Below, piece after piece: positions 24,371-57,608 of a stretch of DNA of 64,000 bases. The notes under the pieces were generated by a model. The model searched no databases. It was given only the letters and a program-made list of their open reading frames with translations, and was not told the DNA's origin. The DNA comes from a virus: positions 1-64,000 of the IMG/VR virus record IMGVR_UViG_3300033991_000123, one strand, 5' to 3'. A program made the position numbers and the translations under genes. Every line of letters begins with the position of its first letter. Position 1 is the stretch's first letter.

Positions 24371-27300
24371 ATGGATTATTTAACTGATCTCGAAAAACAA
24401 ATTGCGCAGTCGATGGGTTACGCTCCGGAATCGGGTGAATCAACGCCCGAACCGTCCATACAAGAACCGGGTAAGAAATTTACATTTACACCGGGTGTAT
24501 TAAAGTGGGAAAATACGATCAATCAACATTTGCAGCAACAGCCAAATGTAGATTCCGATCTCGTAAAAGCGGTGATGCAACAGGAGTCGGGTGGACAAAA
24601 CGTGACCTCGCACGCGGGTGCGCATGGGCCTATGCAGCTAATGCCCGCTACCGCAAAGCGGCTCGGTGTTGATATAAATAATCCGGAAGAAAACGTCAAA
24701 GGGGGCATTTCCGAGCTATCGCAACTTTTAAAAGAATTCGGTGGTGATAAACGCAAGGCCCTTGCTGCGTACAACTGGGGCGGCGCTCGTAAGGCATTTA
24801 AAGAACATCCGAACGATTGGGAAAATTATTTACCCGAAGAAACAAGTGGTTATTTACAAAAAATCGGCGCAATGGTTAGTCTTGGGAAGCCCCAAAACAT
24901 TGAAGAAATTATCGCCCGCTCAATGGGTCTTGAGTTGCCGAAGGAAGAAGGAGCGGCGGCACCGGTTACGCCCGAAACCGATTCTGGATTTCAGCAATAT
25001 TTGCAAAAGTACGGTGTGAAAGATTTTGGTGATCCTCGCAGTCATTACGATTATTATGCCGCGTATAAAGCCGGTGCGATTCCGCAAAAGTGGTCTGAAG
25101 CACCCGCAGCGGATCGACAAGAAGATGTGGCACAGGGTCGATTTGCCCCTGGTGGAGATATGCAGGGGGCTTCTCCGGATCAATACATGTGGCCTGATGA
25201 GTATAAACTACAAGGGCATCCAATACCGCCCCGTGCCCCCGATCAAATAAATATAACACAACCGAAAGCTCCAAAAATACCCGAGCGCATTCCGCTTGAT
25301 TTCACCAATTACGGGAAAGACCCTTCCGAAATAAAGCCTCCGATGCCGGACGTTACCACGGAGGAGGGGTTACGGCAAAGCGTAAAAGAGGCCGGTCCGA
25401 TTGATGCTTTTTTTGCGGAAATGGGTCATGCCATGTCGTTCGCAAGTGATACGGACGCCGATAAAATCAGGCAAGAGCTATTTCCAGCTTCAGCAACGGT
25501 AGGCACGGGTGTTGGGATGGTTGCCCCCGCGTTGATCCCAGGTGGTGTATTTACAAAACTGGCAAAATTGCGTAAGATCGCCCAGGTTATCGGTAAATAC
25601 GGCAAGGCGGGTAAAGCGGCTTTTGATGCGATGAGTCGTATGTCGATAACAGGCGGTGATTATGCGGTTCGAAATCGAGACGCGCTTTTTTCGAATGATC
25701 CTGCGGTGCGCGAAAAGGCCATCAAGGGGCTAGTTGCCGCCCTGGCCGCTTCCGGTGCCTCTGTAGCGCCGGAAATTTTAAAAAGCGGATGGTGGCAACC
25801 GATTTTGCAGGGGCTTACCGCTGGCGCTACAAACGTCGCCGCGCAAAAGGTAACAGGGGAAGACCCTTTATCTACGGAAGCGGCAGCGAGTACAATTTTT
25901 CAGACGGTTTTGTCTGGTGTGTTTGGGCTAGGGATGGCGAAATCTGGCAAGCCAAGCATTAAAAAAGGCGAGGGCGAAGCGTCGATAATTCCCGAAAAGT
26001 GGGAAGGGGCGGCAACGCCGGAGGAGATGGGGGCGCGGCAACGTGGGGTTACCGAAGCATCTGTAAAACAGCAGAACGAGCAATTTCAACAAGAGGCGCA
26101 GCAGCGATTTGCGAAAGAAGAAGAAAGTGCGGCGGAAATAGCGCAAAGGGTTAAGGGTATTGAAGAGCAACAACGACAGAGGATGAGGGAAACCTTTTCG
26201 TTGTCAGAGGGTCGAGAGGCACGACGAGCGACCGTTGAAGAGGGCATGTATTCGGCTCCGCCTTCCGAAGAGCAGGTTTTAGTTAATCAGATTAAAGAAA
26301 AATACGGTGATGCTCGACCGACAAAAAACCAGGTGATGCAGGATTTTGGAGTAGGAAAGCGCGAAGAAGCGGCAGCGCTAATAAATAAAGCGTATGGTTT
26401 ACCACAACAACCAGAAGGAGGCTTAAATGTACAGCAAGAAGAAAAAGGGCGGATGCAAATAGCTGATGTTCCACGTGAACAAACAGTATCGGAGCCGCCG
26501 AAACCGGCGGCTCTTGCTACCCCTGAACCGCAACCAATGGTGAGTGGAGTTGAGGGCAAAAATATAACTGTAGAAAATCCTGATCCGCTTCTTGGGGAAT
26601 TGGGTTTTACAAAATCAAATAAAAGTATTGATTTTGATAATGTAGATAAAGATTTATCGACGGGAACAATTTCTGATGGATCAATTGCCGTAGTAGATTT
26701 AACCAATTTAGGGAAACTCAATAAGGCCGTTGGGCATGATGAAGCGGATAAAATCATTAAAGAGGTTGTATCAATATTGAATAAACATATCGATCCGCTT
26801 GGTTCGCCAACAACGCAAATTCGTAAAAATAGGACCGGCGGCGACGAGCTGACTATTATCGCTCGTAATATTGCTCCCGACAAGTTGGATAATGTCCTCT
26901 ATGCCGCTAGAGATGAAATCGATGCTTTTGTTGCAAATAAAGAAATCGATTTTCATGGAAGAAAAATAAGGCTATCGCAACTTGGGCATGCCAAGGAAGA
27001 CGATTTGGTTACCGGATCAATGACTATCGATCCGGGTGTTGCGGGAATTAAAGAATTTGAAAGCGCAAAAGGGGCTGCTATTGTTGCCGATAAGCGGTCA
27101 TACGCTCATGCGGCAGAGAGAAAAAGGGCGGCGGCGCAAAAAAGTCTTGAAAATGGCGTGGAATTTGTTTATAATACAGAGGAGGGGCAATACCGCCAAT
27201 TACCCGCCGTGGTTGGCAAAATAATTAAAGAAAAGATTCGTAATGGCGAATGGGATGCAAGCGCACCCTACGGAGTTCTGGAACAAAAAGCCCTTGAATT

Positions 27301-39698: not shown

Positions 39699-40479
39699 AG
39701 TTTGCATTACAACCGTTGTGGATGAACACTATGCCGCATACATACCGTTGTTTTGTTGGTGTGTAAAACAGGTATACCCGGCGTATTCATGCAAAATTTT
39801 TACTCGCAATATTGACGTTATTCAGAATTTGTTTTTAAATACTGAGTTTATCCCGTTGTTTGAAGATTTTCCTCGTTATTCATATAATACAATTGCTCTG
39901 CGGTTTGTTATTCCGCCAAAATATTTCGATAAATTCGATTATGTTTACGTAACCGATATTGATATGATGATTATGCCGGAACGCATAAGTATTGAGGATT
40001 TTCATTGCGGGGAAATGGTTTCTACGGGACTCCCCTATTCTAATTCCCTCCGTAATGTGCATCACTACGCCGGATATCAATCGCTCAGTGGGCTGCATTT
40101 CGCTTCTCGGGCATGGTTTATGAAAACCGAAGCCGAACGCCTAAAATATTACGATTTATTGCAGCGCGGCTTAGTAGGGTTGTATCGGGAATACGATGGT
40201 ATAATGCTCTATCGCATGGCCCGAAATAGCGGTCTGGGGATACCTAAAAAGTATAAACTCAAGAAACGGCACCACGGCATTCATTTAGGGAATTTTAGAT
40301 TGTATAACACAAGGGAAGCGTGGGAATCACGGATACCGCCTGAATACAGATCGCAATGGCAATCCTGGGAGTGTGATCCGGAATTTAGCGAAATAATAAA
40401 ACATTGTCGGATAAAAAATAAAATGCTTGATAATCAACTGACTACCCTTCACGATTTTATTAGGAACCCCGGTATATGA
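39691..40479 (+). CDS. Glycosyltransferase, GT8-like, 262 aa
   Basis: N-terminal NKVCITTVVDEHYAAYIPLF, then a D-x-D metal motif in YVTDIDMMI (near residue 92), resemble GT-A enzymes of the GT8 type that use UDP-sugars. A later H-rich segment (KRHHGIHLGNF) fits the C-terminal acceptor/metal site. It has no signal or membrane segment, so it acts in the cytoplasm. Its donor and linkage are unknown. ATGA overlap into neuA. Confidence 0.7.
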   Translation: MNKVCITTVVDEHYAAYIPLFCWCVKQVYPAYSCKIFTRNIDVIQNLFLNTEFIPLFEDFPRYSYNTIALRFVIPPKYFDKFDYVYVTDIDMMIMPERISIEDFHCGEMVSTGLPYSNSLRNVHHYAGYQSLSGLHFASRAWFMKTEAERLKYYDLLQRGLVGLYREYDGIMLYRMARNSGLGIPKKYKLKKRHHGIHLGNFRLYNTREAWESRIPPEYRSQWQSWECDPEFSEIIKHCRIKNKMLDNQLTTLHDFIRNPGI

Positions 40480-41225
40480 AAACAATCGGCATCATCACCG
40501 CTCGAGGCGGATCAAAGGGAATTCCCGGCAAAAATATTAAATTGTTTGCCGGGAAACCTTTGATCGCTTGGACCATCGAAGCGGCGCGAAGCGCGTATAT
40601 GCTGGATTATGTAATCGTATCTACCGATAGCCATGAAATTGCGGCAGTGGCCCGTCAATATAAGGCCGACGTTCCGTTTATCCGCCCAGGTTATTTAGCC
40701 AAAGACGACACGCCGCACATAGACGTTATTTTGCACGCCTTGGATGAAATAGGGTATGATCGGTTTACTCATTGCTGCCTATTGCAACCAACCTCTCCCT
40801 TGCGCACCTCAGACGATATTGACGAGGCGTGTATTTTGGCGAGCAAGCGTAAAAGCAAAACCGTTGTAAGTGTTTCTGAAAACCGTCAATATCCGCTTAT
40901 TTTGCCAAGTGCCGTTTTTGGGTATCTTATTCGCCCTCGACATTTAAAACAACGCTATTTACCGCGACAGGCCATTTTGCCGCGCAGCTTTATTAATGGG
41001 GCAATTTACGTAAATACTATCGAACAGCTACTTAAAAAACGTTCTGTGTATTCGTGGCTTATGTGCGGTTATCCGATGCCCCTGGAACGGTCTATGCAAA
41101 TCGATACACAATTAGATTTTGATATCGCTGAATATCTGATGATAAAAACCATAGACGCAAAAGAACATAAAACCGAAGCAATAGCGCAAGGTCAGCAAAT
41201 TCAATCTGATTTTTTATTTTTATGA
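40476..41225 (+). CDS. neuA: CMP-N-acetylneuraminate (nonulosonate) cytidylyltransferase, 249 aa
   Basis: NeuA activates sialic acid with CTP. Diagnostic motifs: IGIITARGGSKGIPGKNIK (residues about 4-22), PLIAWTIEAA, VIVSTDSHEIA, LLQPTSPLRTSDDI (about 108-121) and KSKTVVSVSEN. Length is near the catalytic core size of bacterial NeuA (about 220-230), so it lacks the C-terminal esterase domain of long NeuA proteins. It is coupled to the glycosyltransferase upstream and the acetyltransferase downstream. CMP-activated product would feed the sialyltransferase-like genes at 43.9 and 46.3 kb. Confidence 0.9.
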   Translation: MKTIGIITARGGSKGIPGKNIKLFAGKPLIAWTIEAARSAYMLDYVIVSTDSHEIAAVARQYKADVPFIRPGYLAKDDTPHIDVILHALDEIGYDRFTHCCLLQPTSPLRTSDDIDEACILASKRKSKTVVSVSENRQYPLILPSAVFGYLIRPRHLKQRYLPRQAILPRSFINGAIYVNTIEQLLKKRSVYSWLMCGYPMPLERSMQIDTQLDFDIAEYLMIKTIDAKEHKTEAIAQGQQIQSDFLFL

Positions 41226-41761
41226 AAACACGCATAAGTATTGGAAAGCACACCTACGGTGAACCAAGGATATACGGTAAATCTGCGCATTGTATAATTG
41301 GCAAATTTTGCAGTATCGGGGAAAATGTGCGAATAGATATCGGTAACGAACATAATCCCAAAAACATTTCAACATTTCCGTTTAACGTAAAATTTCCGGA
41401 GATAGCCGGGCATATAGAAACTCATCCTGTATGTAGGGGCGATGTCATTATTGAAAATGACGTGTGGATAGGTTTTGATGCCATCATTTTAAGCGGTACT
41501 CATATTTATAATGGGGCTGTAATAGGTGCAAATTCGCTCGTGCGCGGTGATGTTATGCCGTATACGATTCATGCCGGTACGCCTGCGGAGTTTAAGCGGT
41601 ATCGGTTTCCATCCGACAGGGATAGGGGCATACTGCAACTAGTGCAATGGTGGGATTGGCCGGATGAATTATTGTTTCGTAAGGACGTTATGGAAATACT
41701 CATGGGTAATGATGTGCAGGCATTATATAAGTTTTGGGAAAGGCATTTGCCGCATGCTTAA
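41222..41761 (+). CDS. Hexapeptide-repeat acetyltransferase, 179 aa
   Basis: A left-handed beta-helix acyltransferase: repeated [LIV]-G-x-x-x-x hexapeptides (IIGKFCSIGENVRIDIG; VIIENDVWIGFDAIILSGTHIYNGAVIGANSLVRGD) with the CatB/LacA-type end MPYTIHAGTPAEFKRYRF. It transfers an acetyl group from acetyl-CoA, possibly to sialic acid (like NeuD/OatWY) or another sugar. ATGA overlap with neuA. Confidence 0.85.
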   Translation: MKTRISIGKHTYGEPRIYGKSAHCIIGKFCSIGENVRIDIGNEHNPKNISTFPFNVKFPEIAGHIETHPVCRGDVIIENDVWIGFDAIILSGTHIYNGAVIGANSLVRGDVMPYTIHAGTPAEFKRYRFPSDRDRGILQLVQWWDWPDELLFRKDVMEILMGNDVQALYKFWERHLPHA

Positions 41762-42422
41762 GGTAATCGTGTGTGGCTATCACACAGAAGATGAACAGTT
41801 GCAAAAATGTTTTGATTCGATTAGGATGCAAAGTAAAGAATACCATTTTGTACTTTCTCTTGATCCTGATTCACCGCAACGCAGGTATTTATTAAAAAAT
41901 ACTCGTTGCGCCATTGATTCTTTTCCGATATTATTGCCGAATGATGTTATTGTTTGTATTGATGCCGATGATTGGCTTATCGATGAAGATACCTTTCGAA
42001 TCATTCATGATGCATACGAAGAAAATCCGAATCTCTTACTTACCTATGGCAGTTATGTAAATCTTAGTAGTAATAAGCGGGGAAAATTCTGTGGCGAATA
42101 TCTTCCTGACGAATCGTTTCGAACGTCCCCCTGGCGGGGTAGTCATTTGAAAACTTTTAAATACAAATTATGGCAAGCGCTTCCGAAAACGCAATTACAG
42201 TGGGATAATGGTGAATGGTTCAAATGCTGCGCGGATCGGGCCATGATGATCCCTATGATGGAACTGGCCGGACACGATCGGATTAAATATATCGATATGC
42301 TTTTGTATTGTTACAACGATTTAAACCCTGAATCGGTGTGGAAAACTAATCGAGAACTAAGCCTTAAAACCAGGGATTTTATTGCGGCTCGATCGCCGCT
42401 ACAACGACTCGAGACAATATGA
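41754..42422 (+). CDS. Glycosyltransferase, GT2-like, 222 aa
   Basis: ATG 41754 overlaps the acetyltransferase end by 8 bp. A Rossmann-like start (LKVIVCGYHTEDEQLQKCFDSI) and the metal motif CIDADDWL (near residue 65) indicate a GT-A glycosyltransferase. It is shorter than typical GT2 enzymes and has no membrane segment. The substrate is unknown. Confidence 0.75.
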   Translation: MLKVIVCGYHTEDEQLQKCFDSIRMQSKEYHFVLSLDPDSPQRRYLLKNTRCAIDSFPILLPNDVIVCIDADDWLIDEDTFRIIHDAYEENPNLLLTYGSYVNLSSNKRGKFCGEYLPDESFRTSPWRGSHLKTFKYKLWQALPKTQLQWDNGEWFKCCADRAMMIPMMELAGHDRIKYIDMLLYCYNDLNPESVWKTNRELSLKTRDFIAARSPLQRLETI

Positions 42423-43171
42423 GCGCATTACCAAAGGTAAGCATTGTAATTACCTTGTATAATTATCACGATTATATTTTGAATACGATTGAATCTTGTT
42501 TAGCGCAGGATTATAAGGGTGAAATTGAGGTAATTGTAGTGGATGACGCCAGCACCGATCTGGGACCGCAATGGGTACAACGAGTTTATGGCGATAGAAT
42601 CAAACTGATCAAATTTGAACGTAATTGCGGGTATAGCGTTGCCAAAAACGAAGGCATCAAAATGAGCAGCGGGGAATTTATCACCACGATTGACGCTGAC
42701 GATATGCTCACCGACGATAGTATCAGTATTCGCGCCCAGATTCTGTTAAAACAGCCGGACGTATCGGTGGTTCATGCCTTGGCCTGGGTAATCAAGGGAG
42801 AGGGAGATCGGGTTTATTGGACTAAGCGATATCGGAAAATTCATGTAGCGCAAAACCGGAAAATCCATGCGCAAACAGTAATGGTTAGGCGGTCGATATA
42901 TACAAAATACGGAATGTATGATGAACGGTTACGATCACGCGCTGATAATGAAATGTGGTGGAGGTTGCAAAACGTGGCGCGTATAGGTGATCAGTTTTAT
43001 TTTTTGGAACAACCTGTAGCGTTTTATCGCAAGCATTCAGCTTCAATGGTTGAATATCGGAAAAAACATCCGTTATACAATTTGACGGTTTCAACGATTT
43101 TGGAAGAGCAAAAAAACATGCGCCTAACCCAGGGTATCACGCGCGAAAATACGAGGTTTTTAAAGCGATGA
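42419..43171 (+). CDS. Family 2 glycosyltransferase, 250 aa
   Basis: Canonical GT2 features: VSIVITLYNYHDYILNTIES at the N-terminus, VIVVDDASTD (near residue 41), NCGYSVAKNEGIKMSSGEFI and TIDADDML (DxD, near residue 92). A C-terminal EQPVAFYRKHSASM segment is usual in O-antigen/capsule GT2 proteins. Cytoplasmic. ATGA overlap upstream and ATGATG overlap downstream. Confidence 0.9.
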   Translation: MSALPKVSIVITLYNYHDYILNTIESCLAQDYKGEIEVIVVDDASTDLGPQWVQRVYGDRIKLIKFERNCGYSVAKNEGIKMSSGEFITTIDADDMLTDDSISIRAQILLKQPDVSVVHALAWVIKGEGDRVYWTKRYRKIHVAQNRKIHAQTVMVRRSIYTKYGMYDERLRSRADNEMWWRLQNVARIGDQFYFLEQPVAFYRKHSASMVEYRKKHPLYNLTVSTILEEQKNMRLTQGITRENTRFLKR

Positions 43172-43908
43172 TGAAATTTAAACATTATATTGTGACCAGG
43201 TTTAACATTGGCTTGTATCAATTGATAAACGTTGATCCGCAAAAATGGTTTAATGAGCGCATTAAGGTTTTCGCCGATATTACTGTTCCATCAATACGCA
43301 AGCAAACATGCCAAAATTTTGAATGGGTTCTGCTTTTTGACCAGCAGACCCCGACCGATCATGCGCGTAAAATGAAAAACGTTCTCGAAAGCATTCCAAA
43401 TGTTCGCAGCCTATTTCTTTCGCTGCCGAAAGATTGGGTATTTAAAAAATATAGCGAGCGGGGATCGGTTACGGCTAATTATACTCCTCTCGTAAAATAT
43501 ATACAGCCACAAAGCAAGTATTCTCTACAAACTCGTCTTGATAACGACGACGCCCTGATGCCTGATGCCGTTGAAAAAATCCAAATGAACGTCATAACGG
43601 CTAAAAACCGTTATATCGTTGATATCCGACTAGGATATATTTTAGATACACTAAAAAAGCACGCATTTAACGCGGTGCATCCGATCGGATCGCCATTTCT
43701 GAGCCTGTTTCAGACAAATAATAAAAATACAATTTCAGTATATAATAACATGCATCGCAGCATGGTAAAGGATGTTCACGTGCGTACAATTAATGAGCGT
43801 TTATGGGTAATGCACGTACATGGCAATAATGTGTCGAACCGAGTATTTGATTGGATGGCGCAAAAACAAATTAACTATAACGAATTATTGGGGACGATCA
43901 CACAATGA
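43168..43908 (+). CDS. Putative rhamnosyltransferase-like protein, 246 aa
   Basis: The order FKHYIVTRFNIGLYQ, then NERIKVFADITVPSIRKQTCQNFEWVLLFD and LQTRLDNDDALMPD fits the putative rhamnosyltransferase family (Rhamno_transf type), where R-L-D-x-D-D is the metal/nucleotide motif. The C-terminus carries HVHGNNVSNR as in relatives. It probably adds a sugar to the same glycan. Overlaps at both ends by 4 bp. Confidence 0.75.
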   Translation: MMKFKHYIVTRFNIGLYQLINVDPQKWFNERIKVFADITVPSIRKQTCQNFEWVLLFDQQTPTDHARKMKNVLESIPNVRSLFLSLPKDWVFKKYSERGSVTANYTPLVKYIQPQSKYSLQTRLDNDDALMPDAVEKIQMNVITAKNRYIVDIRLGYILDTLKKHAFNAVHPIGSPFLSLFQTNNKNTISVYNNMHRSMVKDVHVRTINERLWVMHVHGNNVSNRVFDWMAQKQINYNELLGTITQ

Positions 43909-44630
43909 TTTTATTATCTAAAGAAGAATTTATCGCAACAAAGTCAAGTGACACGCTGGCTTTATTAGGTTCCGGCTATTCCATTAATTCGATATCAAGA
44001 TTTGGATGGGAGTATATTATTAACGAATGTGACTCAATCGCGTTTAACTATTTTTATAAATATAAACGAATCGATATTATCCCTACGTATTATTTGATTG
44101 ATGAACATGGAGTAAACCCAAAAAAGATTACTCCAAACACAACCGCCCAGGACGTAATCGATCATGTTCGCGCAAAGTATTTGATTATTAAAAATCGCAA
44201 TAATCCAAACGAAATAGTAAACTATGCCCGAGATCACGAGGTTTTCAAGCAGTCCGGAATAATCGTCAATCAGTTGCATAAAAATGGTAAATATGAGGAT
44301 TTGGATAAGGATTTTTATTCTGACGGGGTTTATTCGGGCAAAAGCTGTATTTTCAATGGTATACATTTGGGTATTTGGAATAATTATAAACGTGTCATTT
44401 TATACGGTGTAGATTTGTACGATATGCGTTATTGCTGGATGCCCTACAACGAGGAATGGGAATGCGTAACCGTTGATGGAAAAAGCATGCACGACCAACA
44501 CCCACAGGCTATCGCAATCGTTGAACGAATGGCTGCTATTTCACAAAGATATCCGGGAACGGAATTTTGTATTCATAATCCACGATCACTACTAGCGGGA
44601 GTATTACCGTTGTGGAACGTGTTTCAATAG
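43905..44630 (+). CDS. GT42-like putative sialyltransferase, paralogue 1, 241 aa
   Basis: The order of motifs parallels Campylobacter Cst-II (GT42): an N-terminal LALLGSGYSINSI (Cst: nucleotide-binding GNGPSL), AFNYF in place of CNQFY, then SGKSCIFNGIHLGIWNNYKRVILYGVDLYDMRY (Cst: SGIDFYQ region), then an HDQHPQAIAIVE block (catalytic His equivalent) and IHNPRSLLAGVLPL (CPNSLL-type end). It is similar along its length to the gene at 46330. CMP-sialic acid from neuA is the expected donor. Homology is inferred from motif order. Confidence 0.65.
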   Translation: MILLSKEEFIATKSSDTLALLGSGYSINSISRFGWEYIINECDSIAFNYFYKYKRIDIIPTYYLIDEHGVNPKKITPNTTAQDVIDHVRAKYLIIKNRNNPNEIVNYARDHEVFKQSGIIVNQLHKNGKYEDLDKDFYSDGVYSGKSCIFNGIHLGIWNNYKRVILYGVDLYDMRYCWMPYNEEWECVTVDGKSMHDQHPQAIAIVERMAAISQRYPGTEFCIHNPRSLLAGVLPLWNVFQ

Positions 44631-45361
44631 TAATCCCTAATTTTAATTGCCCGTATCTATGGGCGGCAATACGGTCCTGTGTGAAACAGACATACCAAAA
44701 TCTCGAAATAATAATTGTCGATGATGCATCAACAGACAGAAGCGGTTTAAACTGCGTGCAGGAATTTAACGATACCCGTATACGATTCATACAAAGAGAA
44801 ACAAATGGGGGTTCTGCCGCCGCCCGTAATACCGGGATTCGTGCCGCAACCGGTCAGATTATTGCTTTTTTAGACGCCGATGATATGCTTATGGAAAACT
44901 CCGTCGCAAAACGAGTGGCCATATTACAACGATTTGCTTTTGTTGGTATTGTTTGCTCGTATACGTACGTTGTCTATGGTGAGTGGGCGGTAAAGCACTA
45001 CAAAAAATACCATGAATGCTATGCCATTAAAGAAGGCAAATTGGTTCCGTCTCCTACGGGAATGATTCGAAAATCACTTATCGATCAATACGGCTTTTTT
45101 GATGAAAGAATTTGGTTTAATGAAGACCGCGAATTTTGGGGACGCATGATTGTAACCAATAAAATCCCGACGATTAAATTGGCAATTCCAACGGCATATT
45201 ATCGCAAACACGATTCAAATAAATTAAGCACCATGCACAACGCCGACATGCTGGATAAATTAAAAACCAATGATATAATTCCATTCTGGAAAAACTTCGA
45301 ATACCTTTCTGACGCGAGTGATGCGTTACAGCTTATTAACATTTTAAAAACGGATGAATAA
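44612..45361 (+). CDS. Family 2 glycosyltransferase, 249 aa
   Basis: GTG 44612 overlaps the upstream gene by 19 bp. GT2 motifs: VSIVIPNFNCPYLWAAI, IIIVDDASTDRSG, NGGSAAARNTGI and FLDADDML (near residue 90). The C-terminal YYRKHDSNKLS fits capsule GT2 enzymes. Related to the GT2 at 42419. It stops with ATAATG against the GT4 gene. Confidence 0.9.
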   Translation: MERVSIVIPNFNCPYLWAAIRSCVKQTYQNLEIIIVDDASTDRSGLNCVQEFNDTRIRFIQRETNGGSAAARNTGIRAATGQIIAFLDADDMLMENSVAKRVAILQRFAFVGIVCSYTYVVYGEWAVKHYKKYHECYAIKEGKLVPSPTGMIRKSLIDQYGFFDERIWFNEDREFWGRMIVTNKIPTIKLAIPTAYYRKHDSNKLSTMHNADMLDKLKTNDIIPFWKNFEYLSDASDALQLINILKTDE

Positions 45362-46299
45362 TGCGCGTATTATTTCCTGATATCTCAAATCCCTATGGTG
45401 GCAAGGGATGGTTTTTACACGGACTTGTCGCCAAGTTAAGGCAGATAGGCGTACAGGTAACACATGATGCGCATGATGATTACGATGTTAGTTTGGAAAA
45501 TATACGAATACGAACCAAAACCAAACGGCCAATTGTAGTGAGGCTTGACGGTGTATACCATGATACTTCTATTCCGTGGGCCGAGAAAAACGCGAGTTTG
45601 AAAGATGCGGCGGAACGAGCAACGGCAATCGTGTGCCAAAGTGAATACGGTAAACGAATGGTACGGGAATATTTAAATGCCGACGAATCTAAAATATCAA
45701 TTATTCATAATGGTACCGATTTGAACGCAGAAACGATCGATCCCGAATTAACCCATCAACATAATTTTGTTGCCCTGTCGGTATGGCGACCACATAAGCG
45801 CCTCGAGGACATTATAAAAGCATTTTTGGTTGCCGATATCCCCGATTCCTGTTTACGAATTTTGGGGAAAATGGGTGCCGGTATGACCGATGATATTTAT
45901 CGATACGCTTCCGATCGGGTTGTTTTTATGGGTCAAATTACCGATAGGCCACGCTTGCTCGGTTACCTGAAAACCGCTACAGCCATGATACATCTATGTT
46001 GGTTTGATTGCTGCCCCAATTCAGTTGTAGAAGCGATCGGACAGCGATGCCCGGTAATTTGCAGTAATGAAGGCGGCACGCATGAGCTTGTAGAACCGAG
46101 CAACGGGATAGTGTTGCCGCTTGATCGGCAGTATGATTTAAAGCCGGTCGATTTGTATCAACCCCCGCCCGTCGATATTAACAAGGTGGCGGAAGCCATG
46201 CATATTATTGTCCGAGTAAAACCACCCATATTTAATTCTCATGTTGATATTAACCGCACGGCGGCGTTTTATAAAAAGGTGTTTGAATCGGTGCTATGA
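45361..46299 (+). CDS. Family 4 (GT-B) glycosyltransferase, 312 aa
   Basis: A GT-B enzyme: N-terminal GGKGWFLHGLVAKLRQIG, central ISIIHNGTDLN (near residue 117), HKRLEDIIKAF (K of the phosphate contact), VVFMGQI, then the E-x7-E-like C-terminal site WFDCCPNSVVEAIGQRCPVICSNEGGTHEL. Slightly short for GT4 (usual 350-400 aa) mainly at the N-terminus. The sugar is unknown. Confidence 0.85.
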   Translation: MRVLFPDISNPYGGKGWFLHGLVAKLRQIGVQVTHDAHDDYDVSLENIRIRTKTKRPIVVRLDGVYHDTSIPWAEKNASLKDAAERATAIVCQSEYGKRMVREYLNADESKISIIHNGTDLNAETIDPELTHQHNFVALSVWRPHKRLEDIIKAFLVADIPDSCLRILGKMGAGMTDDIYRYASDRVVFMGQITDRPRLLGYLKTATAMIHLCWFDCCPNSVVEAIGQRCPVICSNEGGTHELVEPSNGIVLPLDRQYDLKPVDLYQPPPVDINKVAEAMHIIVRVKPPIFNSHVDINRTAAFYKKVFESVL

Positions 46300-46329
46300 A
46301 ACCTTATCATGCTAAAAAGGATATAAAAA

Positions 46330-47052
46330 ATGAACATATTAACCTCGGATTCGTTTCGCAGTAAAAAGCAACATTCAAAACTTGCCATATTCGGAACAGG
46401 TTATTCTATCAATTATATCACTCCTGATCAATGGGTTAAAATAGAAACCTGTTATGATACCTTGGGAATAAATTGGATGCTTAAATTAAAAAAACCTATG
46501 ACATGGTATATTGTCAGGGAACAATGCGCTACCCCGAAAAGAATTGAGCCGGGACATACCTTAAATGATTTTATTGAATTGATGGCTTATCAAAAAAATG
46601 CATGCAAAATTGTTAAGGATATAGGATATCAAAAAAACAATTATCAACATGCAAAAAATATTAATAATTATGAAGGTGATGGTTATATTTTCAATGAGAT
46701 ACGATATGAATGCGATGTCAAAAGTTTTAAACATTCCGATATGTTTAAGGAAGGAATTCATCATGGACGGGGAACTATATGGGATGCATTGCATTTTGCG
46801 ATTCAAATGAATTATGAAGAAATAATTTTTGGCGGTATTGATCTTTATGATAATAGATATTTTTATCTCGGTTATGATGAAATTTTAGAACAAGTAAAAA
46901 ACGAAGGAAGAGATCAAAATAGTCCCCATCTTCTTTCTAAGAGAACCCTTAAAATAGTTCAAGATACTATTGAATATTATAAACTTCCGATGGCAACGAT
47001 TAATCCAAAATCCACGCTAAACACAATAATGCCTGTTTGGAATGAAACATGA
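46330..47052 (+). CDS. GT42-like putative sialyltransferase, paralogue 2, 240 aa
   Basis: Parallel to the 43905 product: LAIFGTGYSINYIT at the N-terminus, GINWM, then GIHHGRGTIWDALHFAIQMNYEEIIFGGIDLYDNRYFY, an SPHLLSKRTLKIVQ block and INPKSTLNTIMPVW at the end. Paralogues sharing DLYD-x-RY and N-P-K/R-S-L suggest two linkages or two acceptors. Codon use is distinctly more AT-rich than in the first copy, so they were not produced by recent duplication. AAGG precedes ATG 46330 after a 30-bp gap. Confidence 0.6.
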   Translation: MNILTSDSFRSKKQHSKLAIFGTGYSINYITPDQWVKIETCYDTLGINWMLKLKKPMTWYIVREQCATPKRIEPGHTLNDFIELMAYQKNACKIVKDIGYQKNNYQHAKNINNYEGDGYIFNEIRYECDVKSFKHSDMFKEGIHHGRGTIWDALHFAIQMNYEEIIFGGIDLYDNRYFYLGYDEILEQVKNEGRDQNSPHLLSKRTLKIVQDTIEYYKLPMATINPKSTLNTIMPVWNET

Positions 47053-48008
47053 GAACGAACCCCTTTGACGCAATTTATAAACAATGTAATTCAACGGATT
47101 ATTTATTGAAATTAAAAAATCCACTCGTTTTTCCGAGGTGTTTGGATATAGAAGTTACTAACCGTTGTAATTTACAATGTTTAATGTGTCCAACCGGAAA
47201 CGGTATGAGCAAAAGAGCAACGGGTCAAATGTCGGGGGATATTTATTTAAAAATAATAAATGAAGCTGAAAAGTATAATGCCGCTATTCGATTTATTCGT
47301 TGCGGAGAACCCACGCTTCATAAAACACTAATTGATTTTATTAAATTGGCAAAAACAAAAAATATTCTGTGTCACTTGAATACGAATGGCGCGATACTTA
47401 CAGAAAATTATATAATCAAAATACTAAATTCCGGATTGGATAGTATTAAATTTTCCCTACAGGGGATTAATTTGTTTGGGTATAACGAAATGCGGTTAGG
47501 TGGAAATTATAATGCTATAATAAATTCAATAAAAACCCTTTATGCCTTAAGGGGTAATGAAAAAAAACCTTATATACATATTTCAACAACCGTTACCTGC
47601 GAAAAACAAAACGAAATAAAACAGTTTAAAAAAGAAATGAAGAGCTTTTGTGATTTAGTTACCGTGGGCAAGACTGTTCTTGATTATATAAATATAGAAG
47701 AAACCACTCTTGATGCGGCTAAAAAAACAATTCTTGCCAATTTAATGCGCAAAGAATCCGTCAATAAAATACATCCCCATTGCCCAGAAGTATTTGATAA
47801 ACTGTCTATTGATTGGGACGGTTCAGTTACCGCCTGTTGTTGGGATTATAACAGGTATATGTTAATAGGGTATATTGGAACGCACTCATTGAAAGAAATT
47901 TGGGAATGCAAAAAACTTAATGCGTATAGAAATATTCTTTACAATATGAATCACGATAGTCTTAAATTGTGTAAAAATTGTTACGATTATATAGAACTTA
48001 AACATTGA
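47049..48008 (+). CDS. Radical SAM/SPASM protein, 319 aa
   Basis: CNLQCLMC (C-x3-C-x2-C, near residue 41) binds the SAM cluster; RCGEPTLHK (near 86) is the GGEP equivalent; the C-terminus has CCWDYNRY...GTHSLKEIWE and CKNC, the SPASM pattern for auxiliary Fe-S. SPASM proteins in glycan clusters can dehydrogenate or epimerise sugars or act on peptides; the substrate is unknown. AT-rich like its upstream neighbour. ATGA overlap. Confidence 0.85.
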   Translation: MRTNPFDAIYKQCNSTDYLLKLKNPLVFPRCLDIEVTNRCNLQCLMCPTGNGMSKRATGQMSGDIYLKIINEAEKYNAAIRFIRCGEPTLHKTLIDFIKLAKTKNILCHLNTNGAILTENYIIKILNSGLDSIKFSLQGINLFGYNEMRLGGNYNAIINSIKTLYALRGNEKKPYIHISTTVTCEKQNEIKQFKKEMKSFCDLVTVGKTVLDYINIEETTLDAAKKTILANLMRKESVNKIHPHCPEVFDKLSIDWDGSVTACCWDYNRYMLIGYIGTHSLKEIWECKKLNAYRNILYNMNHDSLKLCKNCYDYIELKH

Positions 48009-48077
48009 AAGAACGGTGCCGCACTTGTCATTGCGGGTAGAAGCAATAAAAACTCAAAAACCACAAAGGGGTTTATC

Positions 48078-49187
48078 GTGAAACGATGTATAAAATGCTT
48101 AAAACCAAACACTCTGCCGGGGGTTGTTTTTAGCGCGGATGGAGTTTGCCCAGCTTGTGAGCGTTTTGAAAATCGCAAAAATATAGATTATTCAAAACGA
48201 CGTGAATTTTTAACTCGTCTCTGCGATGAGTTTCGGAGGACAAATGGAAAATACGATTGCATTATCCCTGTTAGCGGCGGCAAGGATTCGTATTTTCAAA
48301 CGTATCTTATGACTCAGGTTTATAAAATGAATCCATTACTGGTATGCGTTACCGATCCGTTTGAGCATACCGGCGCGGGAACGCATAACTATCAAAACCT
48401 AGGCCGTGCGTTTGGATGCGATATGATAACCCTTACCCTGAATCCGGAGTTTGTCGCAAAATCATCCGTTGCAACATTCCGGGAACTTGGTTCGACCAAC
48501 TGGGCGGTAGATAAAGCGATTTATGCGTGGCCGCTGAACGTTGCTCTTGAAAAGGATATACGGTTAGTTGTTTACGGTGAAAACGTCGCATGGGAATATG
48601 GGGGCATGAATGCCGAAGATACGTACAATGCAAACAAACAGATCAATAACGATGTGGTTAAAGGTGATGGCGAGGAAATCATTAAACTATGTGATCCGGA
48701 GCAAAAAAATTATAATGCACTACGCTATCCCAGCACCACAATGTTTGATATGTCGGGAGTGCAAGCTATTTACGCCTCATATTTTTACCCCTGGAATGAT
48801 TTAATCAATGTAGCGGAAGCGGAAAAATGGGGATTCCGTTGCCTTGGCGAGGAGTGGAACCGCCAGGGGTTTTTAGACGATTACGCGCAAATCGATTCGG
48901 TTGGATATCTCTTCAATTATTATTTAAAATTTATGAAATACGGCATCGGTCGCGTTGTCGATATCGGGAGCCGGTGGGTTCGATACGGCAAAATAACCAA
49001 GGAACAATTGGCTGCGCAAATCGAACATAAGGAAGGCCGTCAAGACGATCGTATAGTGCGTGACTTTTTGCGTGTCACAAACCTGGGTCGCGAAGAGTTC
49101 CTGAAAATTATGTCAAAATGGTGGAATTACGACATTTTCGAAATCGATCATTGTGGCGGTTGGCACTGGAAAGACCCAATTTTGTGA
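48078..49187 (+). CDS. N-acetyl sugar amidotransferase, WbuX/PseA-like, 369 aa
   Basis: GTG 48078 has AAGGGG 7 nt upstream. An N-terminal zinc-knuckle pattern (CIKCLKPN..GVCPACERF), then the PP-loop ATP-pyrophosphatase motif PVSGGKDSYFQTY (near residue 66). Later blocks EYGGMNAED, YFYPWNDL and SRWVRYGK fit the family that converts N-acetyl to acetamidino groups on nonulosonic acids or O-antigen sugars (PseA, LegA, WbpG/WbuX). It usually needs a glutaminase or NH3 source, which I do not see here. Confidence 0.85.
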   Translation: MKRCIKCLKPNTLPGVVFSADGVCPACERFENRKNIDYSKRREFLTRLCDEFRRTNGKYDCIIPVSGGKDSYFQTYLMTQVYKMNPLLVCVTDPFEHTGAGTHNYQNLGRAFGCDMITLTLNPEFVAKSSVATFRELGSTNWAVDKAIYAWPLNVALEKDIRLVVYGENVAWEYGGMNAEDTYNANKQINNDVVKGDGEEIIKLCDPEQKNYNALRYPSTTMFDMSGVQAIYASYFYPWNDLINVAEAEKWGFRCLGEEWNRQGFLDDYAQIDSVGYLFNYYLKFMKYGIGRVVDIGSRWVRYGKITKEQLAAQIEHKEGRQDDRIVRDFLRVTNLGREEFLKIMSKWWNYDIFEIDHCGGWHWKDPIL

Positions 49188-50359
49188 ACGAACACTTATT
49201 AAATATGATCCCGCTGTTTTTCGGGCGGATCGGCTCATGGTGGATAGACCGAATGGCGCTTGCTGAATTTTGCTGCAATCGTGACTTAGAATCAGTAAGC
49301 GCCATTCATATTGGCATGACAAATGTTTCACGTGAAACTATTTGTCAACGCTGTACCATGTTTGGATTTCCATATGAGCAAACAGATGACGAAATTGTTA
49401 CGGTAATGTTTGGTAAACCGATCCACATCATTATATACGAACGTGAGCGCAAACAATATCTAACCGGTGGTATTTACGGAGAGTGGGTACGATGTAGCGA
49501 TGAACGCGCTGCGGAGCTACGAAACAAAAATCCGTATATGACCGCTGCTGGCATGTGGAGAGTTCCTTATTCGCAGACCTTTCCGGCCGAATATTATTTG
49601 CCGTATTGTCCGGGATTCGTACTGGATCAAATTGTCCCAGGATGGTTCCAAACGATTAAACATAGGCCGTTTAGCTGGGGGATAAACGATCATTTTTTTG
49701 ATGAGGCTCGAGCAAAAAACGGCGTAGAGTTATTGGCTCAGTTGTATGAATGCGGGCGTAAGGCCAAAATTGATCACGCGATGTTTATCGGCTTTGGAAC
49801 ATTACTTGGGGCTATTCGCCACGGCGGATTTATCCCGAACGACCGCGATATGGACATGTGTATTTTGGCTGATCGTATATCCGTTGACGCCGCGCTTGCA
49901 TACATTGAGGCGTGCCAGGCTGCGGGACTAGGTGAGCACCGATGGCGTGCGCCGGAGTTCCGGGCGGATACAGGGATGCCATTATGGTTTTCGCTGGGGC
50001 CAAAAAACCCTGTGTCCGAATCGGGAGTTAAATGCTGTCAATGGTTTTGGTTTAAGCATGGTGGTTACTGGTGGCATAGTAAGGGCGCTCAGTGGATATC
50101 CCCAAGCAAGTTTAATCCACACAAAGTAGCGTACACACAATCCGACGCCGCGATCGCCAAAGGGATACCGGAAGGATGCGTTAATCGATTAGTCGAGCAT
50201 AATTTCTTAGGGCTACCAGTTTTGGTACCGAGCACGGCCGGAAGATGTCTTGATGAATGGTATCCCGGTTGGCCGGTCCCTCGAGAGGGTGCCAGCGCCC
50301 ATACATATCATTTGGTGGTAGGTAACTGGCATGATGAACGAACTTGGCGCGTTAGCTAG
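49184..50359 (+). CDS. LicD-like phosphotransferase, 391 aa
   Basis: Start GTG 49184 overlaps the upstream TGA (GTGA); the longer 49118 frame is less likely. LicD motif GFGTLLGAIRHGGFIPNDRDMD lies near residue 205 (G-T-L-L-G-x-R-H, D-x-D-x-D), a nucleotidyltransferase-fold site that transfers phosphocholine or a similar phosphodiester to glycans. The N-terminal 180 residues are unlike short LicD proteins and may recognise an acceptor. It precedes and overlaps a cytidylyltransferase, which could make its CDP-linked donor. Confidence 0.75.
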   Translation: MNEHLLNMIPLFFGRIGSWWIDRMALAEFCCNRDLESVSAIHIGMTNVSRETICQRCTMFGFPYEQTDDEIVTVMFGKPIHIIIYERERKQYLTGGIYGEWVRCSDERAAELRNKNPYMTAAGMWRVPYSQTFPAEYYLPYCPGFVLDQIVPGWFQTIKHRPFSWGINDHFFDEARAKNGVELLAQLYECGRKAKIDHAMFIGFGTLLGAIRHGGFIPNDRDMDMCILADRISVDAALAYIEACQAAGLGEHRWRAPEFRADTGMPLWFSLGPKNPVSESGVKCCQWFWFKHGGYWWHSKGAQWISPSKFNPHKVAYTQSDAAIAKGIPEGCVNRLVEHNFLGLPVLVPSTAGRCLDEWYPGWPVPREGASAHTYHLVVGNWHDERTWRVS

Positions 50360-50843
50360 TCGTATTTTAACTCAAGGGGCCGACGAATATGCGTGGACAA
50401 ATCATTTACCTATGGCGAGGTGGACTATGGATGCAGCAGCAAGGGAATTTTTATATGGCCGCGAAAGCAGCACCTTGGGGAGAATTGCTCTTTTTTCCGG
50501 GCGTTTCGACCGGCCGCATATCGGACATATAATTCAAATTATGAGGCTAGGTCAGCGGTTCAGTCGTGTGGTTGTGCCGGTGCTAGATTATCCCGAACAA
50601 CGATACCCGGTACAATACCGGGTGCAGATTTTGTCCGAAGCGCTTGCGATGGCGCGGGGCAACTATTCGATTGTTTCAAATAAGTGCCATTTTGCGAAAA
50701 TTACTCGAGAAGAGGCCCTCGAGTTTGAGTTTGATGTTTATGTTGGCGGAAACATTGACTGTATTCGGAATATGGAGCAGCTTGGATTTGAAACCTTGTT
50801 TGTATCTCGAGCGTATGATTACAGCGCATCGGCGGAGCGGTAG
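50331..50843 (+). CDS. HIGH-motif cytidylyltransferase-like protein, 170 aa
   Basis: The nucleotidyl-transferase core is visible at IALFSGRFDRPHIGHIIQIM (near residue 50), with HIGH, as in TagD and related cytidylyltransferases. The terminal block VDYVYVGGNID.. reads as FDVYVGGNIDCIRNMEQL. It probably makes CDP-glycerol or another CDP-alcohol. It overlaps the LicD-like gene by 29 bp and is the last gene of the cassette; ATG 50334 is an equal start. Confidence 0.8.
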   Translation: MMNELGALASRILTQGADEYAWTNHLPMARWTMDAAAREFLYGRESSTLGRIALFSGRFDRPHIGHIIQIMRLGQRFSRVVVPVLDYPEQRYPVQYRVQILSEALAMARGNYSIVSNKCHFAKITREEALEFEFDVYVGGNIDCIRNMEQLGFETLFVSRAYDYSASAER

Positions 50844-51271: not shown

Positions 51272-51411
51272 ATTCGTTCTATCCTCCGCATCTCGAGTTG
51301 GAGTTCTGCCAGAATTTTTTTACATCGCTTGCTGGCGCGTCTGGCTTTGCATTGATTAGCGTGCAATTTGCCGCGTAGGCGGCCCAACTGCTCCAATAAT
51401 GGTGGGTGCAT
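51238..51411 (-). CDS. Small helical protein, 57 aa
   Basis: I chose ATG 51411 (GAGG 7 nt upstream) within a longer frame. The product is basic and helical (KARRASKRCKKILAELQLEM), with a 34-bp overlap of the nuclease start. A small DNA-binding or coupling peptide is possible. Coding status moderate. Confidence 0.45.
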   Translation of the reverse strand: MHPPLLEQLGRLRGKLHANQCKARRASKRCKKILAELQLEMRRIERICPRAHIRKAA

Positions 51412-51476
51412 AGGTGCCTCGTAGTTGGTTTTAAAGATGCATTTCGGATTATACAGTCTTGGTAAAAAGGGGTCAA

Positions 51477-51510
51477 GAAAAAAATAAAGCCGCCCCAACT
51501 GGAGCGGCTT
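51477..51510 (-). terminator. Rho-independent terminator, leftward
   Basis: On the minus strand AAGCCGC, a 10-nt loop, GCGGCTT, followed by TATTTTTTT. It ends transcription of the integrase from the right and separates it from the nuclease genes. Confidence 0.85.
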
Positions 51511-51527
51511 AACTTGAGTGAATGCCG

Positions 51528-51747
51528 TAGCGCAAAATAGCGCAAAATAGCGCAAAAATGTTCCGGGTTGGTCCTGCTTGGTCGTTGGTTTTTGAGGAAT
51601 TTGATGAAATTTCGCGGTTTTTGAGGTAACGCACTATCTTTTGAGTCCAGTACGTCTACCAATTTCGTCACTTCGGCACAATAAAAATCAATAACTTGCA
51701 GACTTACCTTTCTTCCGTCAGCCCCCCAATAGCGCAAAATAGCGCAC
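51528..51747. other. attP: Candidate attP region with arm-type direct repeats
   Basis: Three tandem copies of TAGCGCAAAA (51528-51557) lie on the left and two copies, the second partial (51730-51747), on the right of a tRNA-Leu half at 51636-51677. Flanking direct repeats of about 10 bp around a core are the layout of lambda-type arm sites for a tyrosine integrase. The region lies between the integrase stop and the leftward terminator. Confidence 0.75.
51636..51677 (-). other. tRNA-Leu 5' half: probable attP core
   Basis: Reading leftward from 51677 the sequence is like the start of a tRNA-Leu gene: GCCGAAGTG, then AAATTGGTAGACG and CTGGACTCAAAA across the anticodon stem-loop. After the loop similarity stops: the 3' stem half does not pair fully (GATAG against CTGGA) and no variable arm, T-arm or acceptor follows. 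Phages integrating at a tRNA carry such a partial copy in attP. It is not a functional tRNA. Confidence 0.75.
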
Positions 51748-51751
51748 TTTT

Positions 51752-53020
51752 TCATGTTTCTGCCCCCGACACTTCCGACAAACGAGATTTGTACGCTTGA
51801 CGAATGACGAATTGTACGTCGCTTAACGCCATGCCCTTTTCCTGTGCCATTGCAAGCAATCCTTGTACCAATTCCTCCATTCCCTCCGGAATCGCTTGCG
51901 TGGTCCCGGCAACTGAGCGCTGACGGGCTTCGTCGATCACATCATACGCCGCACTAACAGCGCTTGAAGAATGTCCCATATTACGCATCGTTGCCGCAAA
52001 ATCTGCACCTTCCACGCTCTTTCTAGTGCGATACGAATGCCGATGATTGTGCGCTTTAAACCGGCAGTATTTTTTATTGCCGGTTTTTATAGCGTATTTA
52101 TCCGCCCAAATTCTAATGGAATGGGAAAAGGAATTTTTTGTAACCACTCCACCATATTTTCCGCGAAATACGATATCGTCGTTTTTGCCGCTAGTAAAAT
52201 ATTCTATCCACAACTCTTCTAAAACAGGTTCCATTTCAGGATCATAAAAAACTACCTTGGCCCGGTTTTCTTTGAGGTCGTTAGCTTGGAATGTAATTTT
52301 ACGCTCCTTTCTGTTGATTCTGGACCAACGCACGCCTTTTAATTCCCCTGGCCTTAACCCGGAATAAAAACACATCATCGCGGGACAATATAAATGTTTT
52401 GGAAATGTCGCGACCATCGGCAGAAACTCTTCCGTCGTAAGAGAGACTGCTTCGTAATCATCAAAACGGCGGAGTTCTTTCGCCAGTTGGTCGGTTTTCC
52501 CGCAGCATCGGGTCAGCGGATTAAATGAAACAAAGCCTTCATCGATTCCCCAATTAAATATTCGAACGCCATATCGCATTATTTTTTTTACGCTTTTTGC
52601 ACCTAATTGCGTATGCTTCCAAGCTCCGCGTTTTGGGGTTTCTATCGGGGTGCGGATGGCAGCAAGTAGCCATTTTTTAAAATCAGTTTTATCGAACTGA
52701 TCGCATCGATAGTGGCCCCAACGGCGGATTAATATATCTACATAGTACGCATTTGAGGTGGCCCTAGTCAGGGGAACCAAATAATCGTCTCGGTATTTTG
52801 CAGCTAATTCCCCAAAAGTTAAATCGGGGTTCTGCATGTGCTTCGCTTTAATCCCAAGAACGTTAGTAAGTCCGCTACTTTCAAGGAGCCGTTTGGCACA
52901 GAGCTGGTCGTACAGCTTTTGCGCCTCTTTTTTTGGTAGGTATTTGTTGTGAGACTTCCCCAACTCATCCCGCCAAAAAACCCGAAAAATACCATCCTTA
53001 TACGGTGTTATGCTAGCCAT
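51752..53020 (-). CDS. int: Tyrosine-recombinase integrase, 422 aa
   Basis: I chose ATG 53020 (AAGGA 7 nt upstream). The catalytic set is visible: Arg in CFYSGLRPGELKGVRW (near residue 215), H-x-x-R in HNHRHSYRTR, His in MRNMGHSSSAVS and the nucleophile Tyr in SAAYD. N-terminal arm-binding and SAM-like core domains precede. It would recombine attP with a host tRNA-Leu gene. The attP candidate lies immediately downstream. Confidence 0.9.
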   Translation of the reverse strand: MASITPYKDGIFRVFWRDELGKSHNKYLPKKEAQKLYDQLCAKRLLESSGLTNVLGIKAKHMQNPDLTFGELAAKYRDDYLVPLTRATSNAYYVDILIRRWGHYRCDQFDKTDFKKWLLAAIRTPIETPKRGAWKHTQLGAKSVKKIMRYGVRIFNWGIDEGFVSFNPLTRCCGKTDQLAKELRRFDDYEAVSLTTEEFLPMVATFPKHLYCPAMMCFYSGLRPGELKGVRWSRINRKERKITFQANDLKENRAKVVFYDPEMEPVLEELWIEYFTSGKNDDIVFRGKYGGVVTKNSFSHSIRIWADKYAIKTGNKKYCRFKAHNHRHSYRTRKSVEGADFAATMRNMGHSSSAVSAAYDVIDEARQRSVAGTTQAIPEGMEELVQGLLAMAQEKGMALSDVQFVIRQAYKSRLSEVSGAET

Positions 53021-53095: not shown

Positions 53096-53335
53096 TCAAG
53101 ACCGTACATAACGCTTATAGGTCGTCATCCAGCGATCGATTGTTTCGGGTCGCCAGTACATCGCCGATTGGGATATTCGGAAATCCGGCGGCGGTAGTTT
53201 TCCTTGGCGAATCCATTTAAAAATCGTGTGTACGGCGGGTTTTCCGTCTTCTGTGGTACAATCAAAATAAATCGCTAGTCGCCGCACTGTAAAAAGCTGT
53301 TTGTTTTCTACGGATTCATTTTCTGTTTCCACCAT
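53096..53335 (-). CDS. HTH_17/excisionase-like protein, 79 aa
   Basis: A MerR-type winged helix: FTVRRLAIYFDC, then HTIFKWIRQGKLPPPDFRIS and WRPETIDRWM, the pattern of AlpA/Xis and HTH_17 proteins. Its place just upstream of int in the same direction suggests it is the recombination directionality factor or a regulator of int. No SD is obvious on its own; ATG 53335 follows the upstream gene by 3 bp. Confidence 0.75.
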   Translation of the reverse strand: MVETENESVENKQLFTVRRLAIYFDCTTEDGKPAVHTIFKWIRQGKLPPPDFRISQSAMYWRPETIDRWMTTYKRYVRS

Positions 53336-56306: not shown

Positions 56307-56868
56307 GCATACCTCCGTGGCGAGTTAATCGTTTGGTGCGAAGGATTTGATTATATCGCAATAAATAGTGCAGTAGATATCCGGGCATCGATACGTCGGT
56401 TTTATACGCCTTCTCGAACCCAGCTAGCCAGTGATCCACGATCGGCGACCATGTTTTAGGCCTCCCGAAGGCTGCCCATTCATCGATCGACATCGGGGTA
56501 GTACTACCCAGGGGGTCGGTGGCGACCAGTCCTTGGCGGTGCCATTCCGTTAGTTCAGAGAGAAATTCCATCATTGCACGAAACTCCTCGCTCGACCCGG
56601 CCCCCTCGACCGTTTTTTTCCAGGAGTTTTTTTCTGCCTCAGCTTCAATCGTGGCAATTTCCTTCTCGATCATCCCGGAGATGTTTTGGGGGATTTTGGG
56701 TTGTTCTTGAAGTCGCCGAATAATTTCTCGAGATTTTCTCTCTCCAATTTTTGCGAACAGATCACGAATACCGCGATCTACAAGTTCCGGCAACTCCCGT
56801 TCGCGCATCAGCGCGATTTTGGCGCATAACTCAGTTTTCCAATCACGGGTTGCCATGTCGGTGATCAT
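56212..56868 (-). CDS. Hypothetical early protein, 218 aa
   Basis: Helical and charged in the first 90 residues (ELPELVDRGIRDLFAKIGER; NISGMIEKEIATIEAEAEKN), with a middle EWHRQGL/DPLGSTTPMSIDEWAAF block. No cofactor or nuclease motif stands out. It is coupled to the replisome organiser upstream by a 4-bp overlap and to the small basic gene downstream. The longer Met choices (56868 or 56856) are equivalent. Confidence 0.65.
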   Translation of the reverse strand: MITDMATRDWKTELCAKIALMRERELPELVDRGIRDLFAKIGERKSREIIRRLQEQPKIPQNISGMIEKEIATIEAEAEKNSWKKTVEGAGSSEEFRAMMEFLSELTEWHRQGLVATDPLGSTTPMSIDEWAAFGRPKTWSPIVDHWLAGFEKAYKTDVSMPGYLLHYLLRYNQILRTKRLTRHGGMHDKDQGPDQKTQTEIPYLLEFEDEPVSGKDT

Positions 56869-57608
56869 TCACCACCCCCGGATAGGTAATTCGTCATTTT
56901 TACGCGCGGGTTATTGCGAGCATACCGTTCCCAGGTGATGATGCAACATCGCCAGGATTTAATTTTATTGCCGTGTTTATCCACCCATCCAGACTTACCG
57001 TAATGAGCAATAAAAGCCTCCGGGTCTATGCCGTTTTGCCGGGAGTCACAATACTGTCGAACCTCCTCTATCGTCGGAGGTATGGTTTCCGTATCGCGAT
57101 GGCGTTTGCGCTGTTTAAGCTCTGTTGATGAATCCACTCCAAGTTTTGCTAAATCTGCCTCAATTTTAGCCATATTATTAATATTTAATATTTCTTTTTC
57201 TTCTCTTTCTTCTCTTTCTTCTCCTTCTCTAGATGTGTCCACCCGTTGTCCTCCCGTTGTCCTCCCGATGTCCAAACTCTGTCCTCCCGTTGTCCTCTCA
57301 CCGTTATAAAGCTCCCAATTTAAAAGAGTTATAATGGTGTATCGGTTGTCCGATTTCAAGCCTATAATTTTCAAATGAGAGAGTTTTTCCAAACGGTTGC
57401 GAATTGTGCTAGGTTTTTCCTTTAAACGAGACGCCAAAGAATAGCGTCCGACAATGACTTGTCCTGGTTCGAGGCGTACACCATAAACAAATGATGGTTT
57501 GGCTTGTACGTGGACTAAAATCCACAAAAAAAGTTGGCATAAACCCGCGTTATACATCAATAAATTGTCCTGTATTTTACGCCACAACTTAACGTAGCCG
57601 CGATACAT
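56865..57608 (-). CDS. Replisome-organiser/DnaD-like protein, 247 aa
   Basis: N-terminal ~100 residues (YVKLWRKIQDNLLMYNAG; RLEPGQVIVGRYSLASRLKE; STIRNRLEKLSHLKIIGLKS) form a winged-helix DNA-binding domain. The middle is an acidic low-complexity stretch (EEREEREEKE near residue 130). The C-terminus (IEEVRQYCDSRQNGIDPEAF; HYGKSGW; SWRCCIITWERY) matches the helicase-loader tail found in phage DnaD-like proteins. It likely opens replication, perhaps with host DnaA. Confidence 0.8.
   Translation of the reverse strand: MYRGYVKLWRKIQDNLLMYNAGLCQLFLWILVHVQAKPSFVYGVRLEPGQVIVGRYSLASRLKEKPSTIRNRLEKLSHLKIIGLKSDNRYTIITLLNWELYNGERTTGGQSLDIGRTTGGQRVDTSREGEEREEREEKEILNINNMAKIEADLAKLGVDSSTELKQRKRHRDTETIPPTIEEVRQYCDSRQNGIDPEAFIAHYGKSGWVDKHGNKIKSWRCCIITWERYARNNPRVKMTNYLSGGGE

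Follow-up and report, generated by a model that had tools for sequence, protein, structure and literature searches.

A probable phage attP containing the 5′ half of a tRNA-Leu(CAA) gene downstream of a tyrosine integrase gene

Positions 51528–51749 of the window (the 64,000-base stretch analyzed here, which is the first part of a 68,505-bp virus record) very probably form the attP of an integration-capable phage, whose tyrosine integrase would recombine the anticodon-loop region of a tRNA 5′ half with the tRNA-Leu(CAA) gene of a host. The assignment draws on the families and catalytic residues of the integrase, a tRNA half that stands above chance, and clustered, near-symmetric repeats, together with a closed genome, an excisionase-like gene beside int, and the same order of elements in the cyanophages S-CBP3 and P-SSP7. 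Most tRNA-targeting elements carry the 3′ half of the gene, and the tRNA keeps its own promoter, whereas the present phage carries the 5′ half; the rebuilt tRNA would therefore lie downstream of int, cut from its own promoter. The 5′-half configuration is rare but already documented. This phage adds a further case of the layout (int, tRNA 5′ half, terminator), apparently unrelated to the cyanophages in which it has been tested experimentally and combined with clear arm-like repeats. The sequence-only reading of this DNA commented neither on the rarity of a 5′ half nor on what it would mean for the promoter of the rebuilt tRNA. In minus-strand order, the site and its surroundings comprise:

53096–53335, minus strand: candidate excisionase-like HTH gene (79 aa), directly upstream of int
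51752–53020, minus strand: int, tyrosine integrase of 422 aa (PF00589, phrog_1)
51730–51749, minus strand: int-side arm-like repeats, on the plus strand reading as exact TAGCGCAAAA (51730–51739) and degenerate TAGCGCACTT (51740–51749); putative Int binding
51639–51677, minus strand: tRNA-Leu(CAA) 5′ half, presumed attP core, matching real tRNA-Leu(CAA) 5′ halves
51626–51616 and 51597–51587, minus strand: a pair of exact 11-bp direct repeats, CCTCAAAAACC, in the stretch from the core to the three-repeat arm
51528–51557, minus strand: three contiguous exact arm-like repeats TAGCGCAAAA (plus-strand reading); putative Int binding
51487–51510, minus strand: intrinsic-terminator-like stem-loop of 10 pairs, then TATTTTTTTC
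51476–51448, minus strand: promoter-like TTGACC-17-TATAAT
51271–50846, minus strand: gene with a sub-threshold VRR-NUC match

Read on the minus strand, 51677–51639 (GCCGAAGTGACGAAATTGGTAGACGTACTGGACTCAAAA) corresponds to nt 1–39 of a tRNA-Leu(CAA) gene and stops with the final base of the anticodon loop, CTCAAAA (51645–51639). Five real tRNA-Leu(CAA) 5′ halves match this 39-mer at 30–35 of 39 positions, against 21–24 of 39 at the next best place for the same halves elsewhere in the window, on either strand; the half is far above chance. It begins 74 bp past the int stop on the same strand, in agreement with the earlier claim of a tRNA-Leu 5′ half running through the anticodon loop just downstream of int. 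Neither a whole tRNA gene nor a 3′ half (matching T arm and 3′ acceptor strand) was found in the 64-kb window. ARAGORN made no call on the phage DNA alone and called tRNA-Leu(caa) once a generic tRNA-Leu 3′ half of our own making had been appended to the 39-mer, a result that shows only compatibility with a Leu 3′ half; the D stem of the joined tRNA is paired (ACG/CGT). The phage sequences on either side of the loop, ACTGGA and GATAGT, retain ACT/AGT as an outer inverted repeat; to the right of the loop, a normal tRNA of this type would have TCCAG.

The int product matches PF00589 (E = 7e-12) and phrog_1 (E = 9e-37). Its likely start is the ATG at 53020, preceded by GGAAAGGA, and a longer frame runs from 53056. 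In an alignment with four integrases, R223, H324, R327, and H350 were invariant and Y359 was assigned by position. Other phage and plasmid integrases are only remote relatives, at 19–24% in alignment. Residues 1–64, modeled alone, were predicted to form three strands and a helix (pLDDT ~90 over residues 1–40), the known arrangement of the arm-binding domains in lambda and Tn916 integrases; the structural match of this domain to the Tn916 integrase N-domain was not significant (E = 0.6). The full-length model, built without an alignment, was poor (pLDDT 39), so its fold matches were not used. The 79-aa HTH protein encoded upstream of int matches the phrog_597 DNA-binding protein (E = 1e-7) and the phrog_66 excisionase/regulator (E = 0.006), with PF12728 (HTH_17) below the cut-off (E = 0.004), and is a candidate excisionase (recombination directionality factor).

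The window holds five exact copies of TAGCGCAAAA (0.24 expected), four of them at the attP and one at 42846; repeats scattered all over the genome would have counted against the earlier reading. Among the 260-bp stretches of the window (step 20), nowhere else does any 10-mer occur four times; when the region was dinucleotide-shuffled, a 10-mer attained this count in 6 of 2000 shuffles. That reading placed three repeats on one flank and two on the opposite flank. The three are contiguous and exact, but of the two on the int side one is exact and the other, TAGCGCACTT, has three mismatches to TAGCGCAAAA. The degenerate copy also changes the extent of the feature: the proposed start at 51528 stands, and the proposed end at 51747 gives way to 51749. 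The terminator-like site at 51510–51487 and the excisionase-like gene had escaped that reading, as had two further exact 11-bp repeats, GGTTTTTGAGG at 51587–51597 and 51616–51626 (CCTCAAAAACC on the minus strand). These repeats lie 29 bp apart, contain the loop heptamer CTCAAAA, and are possible accessory sites, either for Xis or as weak Int sites.

The TAGCGCAAAA blocks are putative Int arm-binding sites. The attP of phage lambda has direct arm-type repeats of ~10 bp around its core, with a contiguous block of three on one flank and a pair on the opposite flank. The present site resembles it, at the level of sequence, in having repeats so arranged on both sides of a core, next to a tyrosine recombinase gene with its catalytic residues. 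Unlike in lambda, the core falls within a tRNA gene, and the repeat sequence is unrelated. The centers of the three-repeat and two-repeat blocks lie 99.5 bp and 97.5 bp, respectively, from the loop center (51642), a near-symmetry that appears to fit an anticodon-loop crossover, this loop being among the known subsites (PMC4383910). An IMG/VR search found neither the doubled repeat as a 20-mer nor the core with its phage flank.

The exact 39-mer had no match in IMG/VR or in genome_contigs (~85,000 species genomes); these searches took in a single genome for each species and, in genome_contigs, contigs of at least 3 kb only. This says that the host is unrepresented in the collections searched, not that the host is without the site. 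A degenerate 33-mer found one tRNA-Leu(CAA), in Magasanikbacteria, with a different acceptor stem. Magasanikbacteria as host was unsupported: beyond the acceptor stem, that genome has no such integrase, and no near match occurs across the phylum (nothing within 3 mismatches in 379 genomes). Five IMG/VR matches to a tRNA-Leu pattern proved to be complete tRNA genes rather than halves, and no prophage, attL, or attR was found in these searches. The missing exact match among ~85,000 species genomes is what a remnant would also give, with the site disused after drift of the host tRNA or of the integrase. Such decay is unlikely, however, given that int is intact with its catalytic residues, the ACG/CGT D stem is still paired, and the three repeats are contiguous and exact. 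Moreover, the absence of the host is expected because the phage itself is almost without relatives in the collections. IMG/VR searches with int, the terminase, and a phrog_3657 protein returned zero relatives, and the portal had a single remote IMG/VR match (a segment at 24%). For a functional attP, the 39-bp half would be usable as a probe for the host of this phage.

The record begins and ends with the same 87 bases, and this exact direct terminal repeat supports a complete, unintegrated phage genome. In a genome closed in this way there is no adjoining host DNA, and the site is for this reason read as attP. Phage-like genes flank it on both sides, and the view that it is an unintegrated attP and not attL or attR was upheld. 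A prophage end, bordered by host DNA on one side, would look alike in placing a tRNA fragment beside int, but the phage-like genes on both sides and the exact 87-bp repeat that closes the record make it very improbable. It is scarcely credible that 51279–51755 (minus strand) is a protein-coding gene following int, with an incidental likeness to tRNA: the frame is open for 158 codons from an ATGA start overlapping the int stop, but its codon score is −0.02 against 0.15–0.33 for eight genes scored nearby, it has no family match, and it passes through the repeats and the terminator-like site. Group I introns occur in the anticodon loop of tRNA-Leu, and the break in or at this loop would suit the 5′ exon of a split tRNA gene, but the chance of this is negligible, as no Rfam family reaches its cut-off in the window, a lax scan of 51450–51800 gave no group I intron, no matching T arm and 3′ acceptor strand are present, and a terminator-like site follows the half. 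On this evidence, the group I intron, the protein-coding frame, and the prophage end were all rejected.

If the site is an attP, Int bound at the TAGCGCAAAA arms would exchange strands at the 7-bp anticodon loop. One prophage end would then join the phage 5′ half to the host 3′ half and restore a whole tRNA-Leu downstream of int, and the other would keep the host promoter with the old 5′ half left as a fragment. The rebuilt tRNA would be transcribed from phage DNA. No sigma-70-type promoter was found in the 74 bp before the tRNA half, so transcription would come from int read-through or from a promoter of another type, unrecognized in those 74 bp. Four terminator-like sites were found in the region versus 2.8 expected from shuffles, that at 51510–51487 having the strongest stem. 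It would stop the int transcript just past attP in the free phage, and integration would shift it to the far prophage end. We tentatively propose, as a possibility short of even odds, that the int transcript of a lysogen is the precursor of the host tRNA-Leu(CAA), and that this coupling was reached independently in cyanophages, pTN3, and the present phage. If true, the host would rely on lasting transcription through int, because no promoter was seen before the half and integration would displace the terminator, and losing int expression would be costly. The layout raises a testable question, namely how a lysogen expresses a tRNA gene severed from its own promoter.

In T7-like cyanophages such as P-SSP7, S-TIP37, and S-CBP3, int is followed directly by a 39-bp first half of tRNA-Leu; integration in this group has been shown experimentally and is reported to need int and attP (PMC8776855). 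Their ability to integrate need not equal classical lysogeny. These phages were found by blastn with the 39-mer. The half starts 81 bp (S-CBP3) and 91 bp (P-SSP7) past the int stop on the int strand, compared to 74 bp here; in both phages it stops at the loop and does not belong to a complete tRNA, and a terminator-like site comes within ~41 bp after it. A similar half and a terminator-like site are also present in P-SSP2, with int unannotated. The present phage shares with the cyanophages the order of int, tRNA-Leu 5′ half, and terminator-like site on one strand with no complete tRNA nearby; its own half ends at the anticodon loop without a 3′ half and directly follows int on that strand. In contrast, the cyanophage integrases have 254–290 aa (422 aa here), their alignment with the present enzyme is confined to the catalytic domain (21–23%), and the S-CBP3 and P-SSP7 sites are without direct repeats of at least 10 bp. 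The cyanophages belong to the Autographiviridae, whereas the terminase and portal of the present phage have only remote matches, to other phage groups. The phage is apparently unrelated to the T7-like cyanophages in which the 5′-half layout has been tested. In P-SSP7 (L017, 2448–2475) and P-SSP2 (L018, 2446–2474), a promoter-like site ending in TATAAT was observed ~20 bp before the half. The attP of these two phages may bring its own tRNA promoter, with the proviso that chance alone gives comparable numbers of these sites in such AT-rich DNA.

The archaeal plasmid pTN3 has 41 bp in common with the 5′ half of a tRNA-Leu with anticodon CAA (PMC5495485). According to a review, pTN3-like integrases use the 5′ half, the rebuilt tRNA is expressed from the promoter of the integrase, and such an arrangement is uncommon in bacteria (PMC8371274). 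The present phage resembles pTN3 in the tRNA-Leu CAA 5′ half and in a rebuilt tRNA that would be parted from its own promoter. The two differ in that the pTN3 att site is inside the integrase gene, which is disrupted on integration, whereas this attP lies past the int stop; int ends at 51752, before the half at 51677–51639, and is not a suicidal integrase of the pTN3/SSV type. In the Islander collection, 159 of 3919 islands (~4%) displace a 5′ tDNA fragment and 3760 displace a 3′ fragment (PMC4383910). The product predicted here, an intact tRNA at one end and a 5′ fragment at the other, is that of the 5′-fragment islands, but the present element has no known integrated copy. tRNA-dependent lysogeny involves a very short core and a whole phage-encoded tRNA of the same isotype (PMC10865867), whereas the tRNA-like stretch here is 39 nt and no tRNA gene occurs in the 64-kb window.

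Other regions of the genome also drew attention. A block of sugar genes at 40476–50843, unusual cargo in a 68-kb phage, encodes cytidylyltransferases, family 2 and group 1 glycosyltransferases, a rhamnosyl-transferase-like protein, a LicD-like protein, and a radical SAM/SPASM protein. A virion-type protein of 1913 aa (24371–30112) contains an SLT transglycosylase domain and a GGDEF match above the cut-off (E = 7e-7). Within the DnaD-like helicase-loader gene at 56865–57608, an 11-bp direct repeat, TGTCCTCCCGT, is present at 57225–57308 in six degenerate copies, which resemble origin iterons inside an initiator gene. The G-poor intergenic stretch of ~1.35 kb at 3527–4880 contains recurring short motifs (e.g., TACC, ATAC, and TTAC). 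Its self-likeness peaks at 5, 10/11, 16, 21, 26, 31, and 36 bases, a period of ~5.2 bp or half a helical turn, and identity at lag 26 is 46% versus 25% in a 20-kb control stretch.
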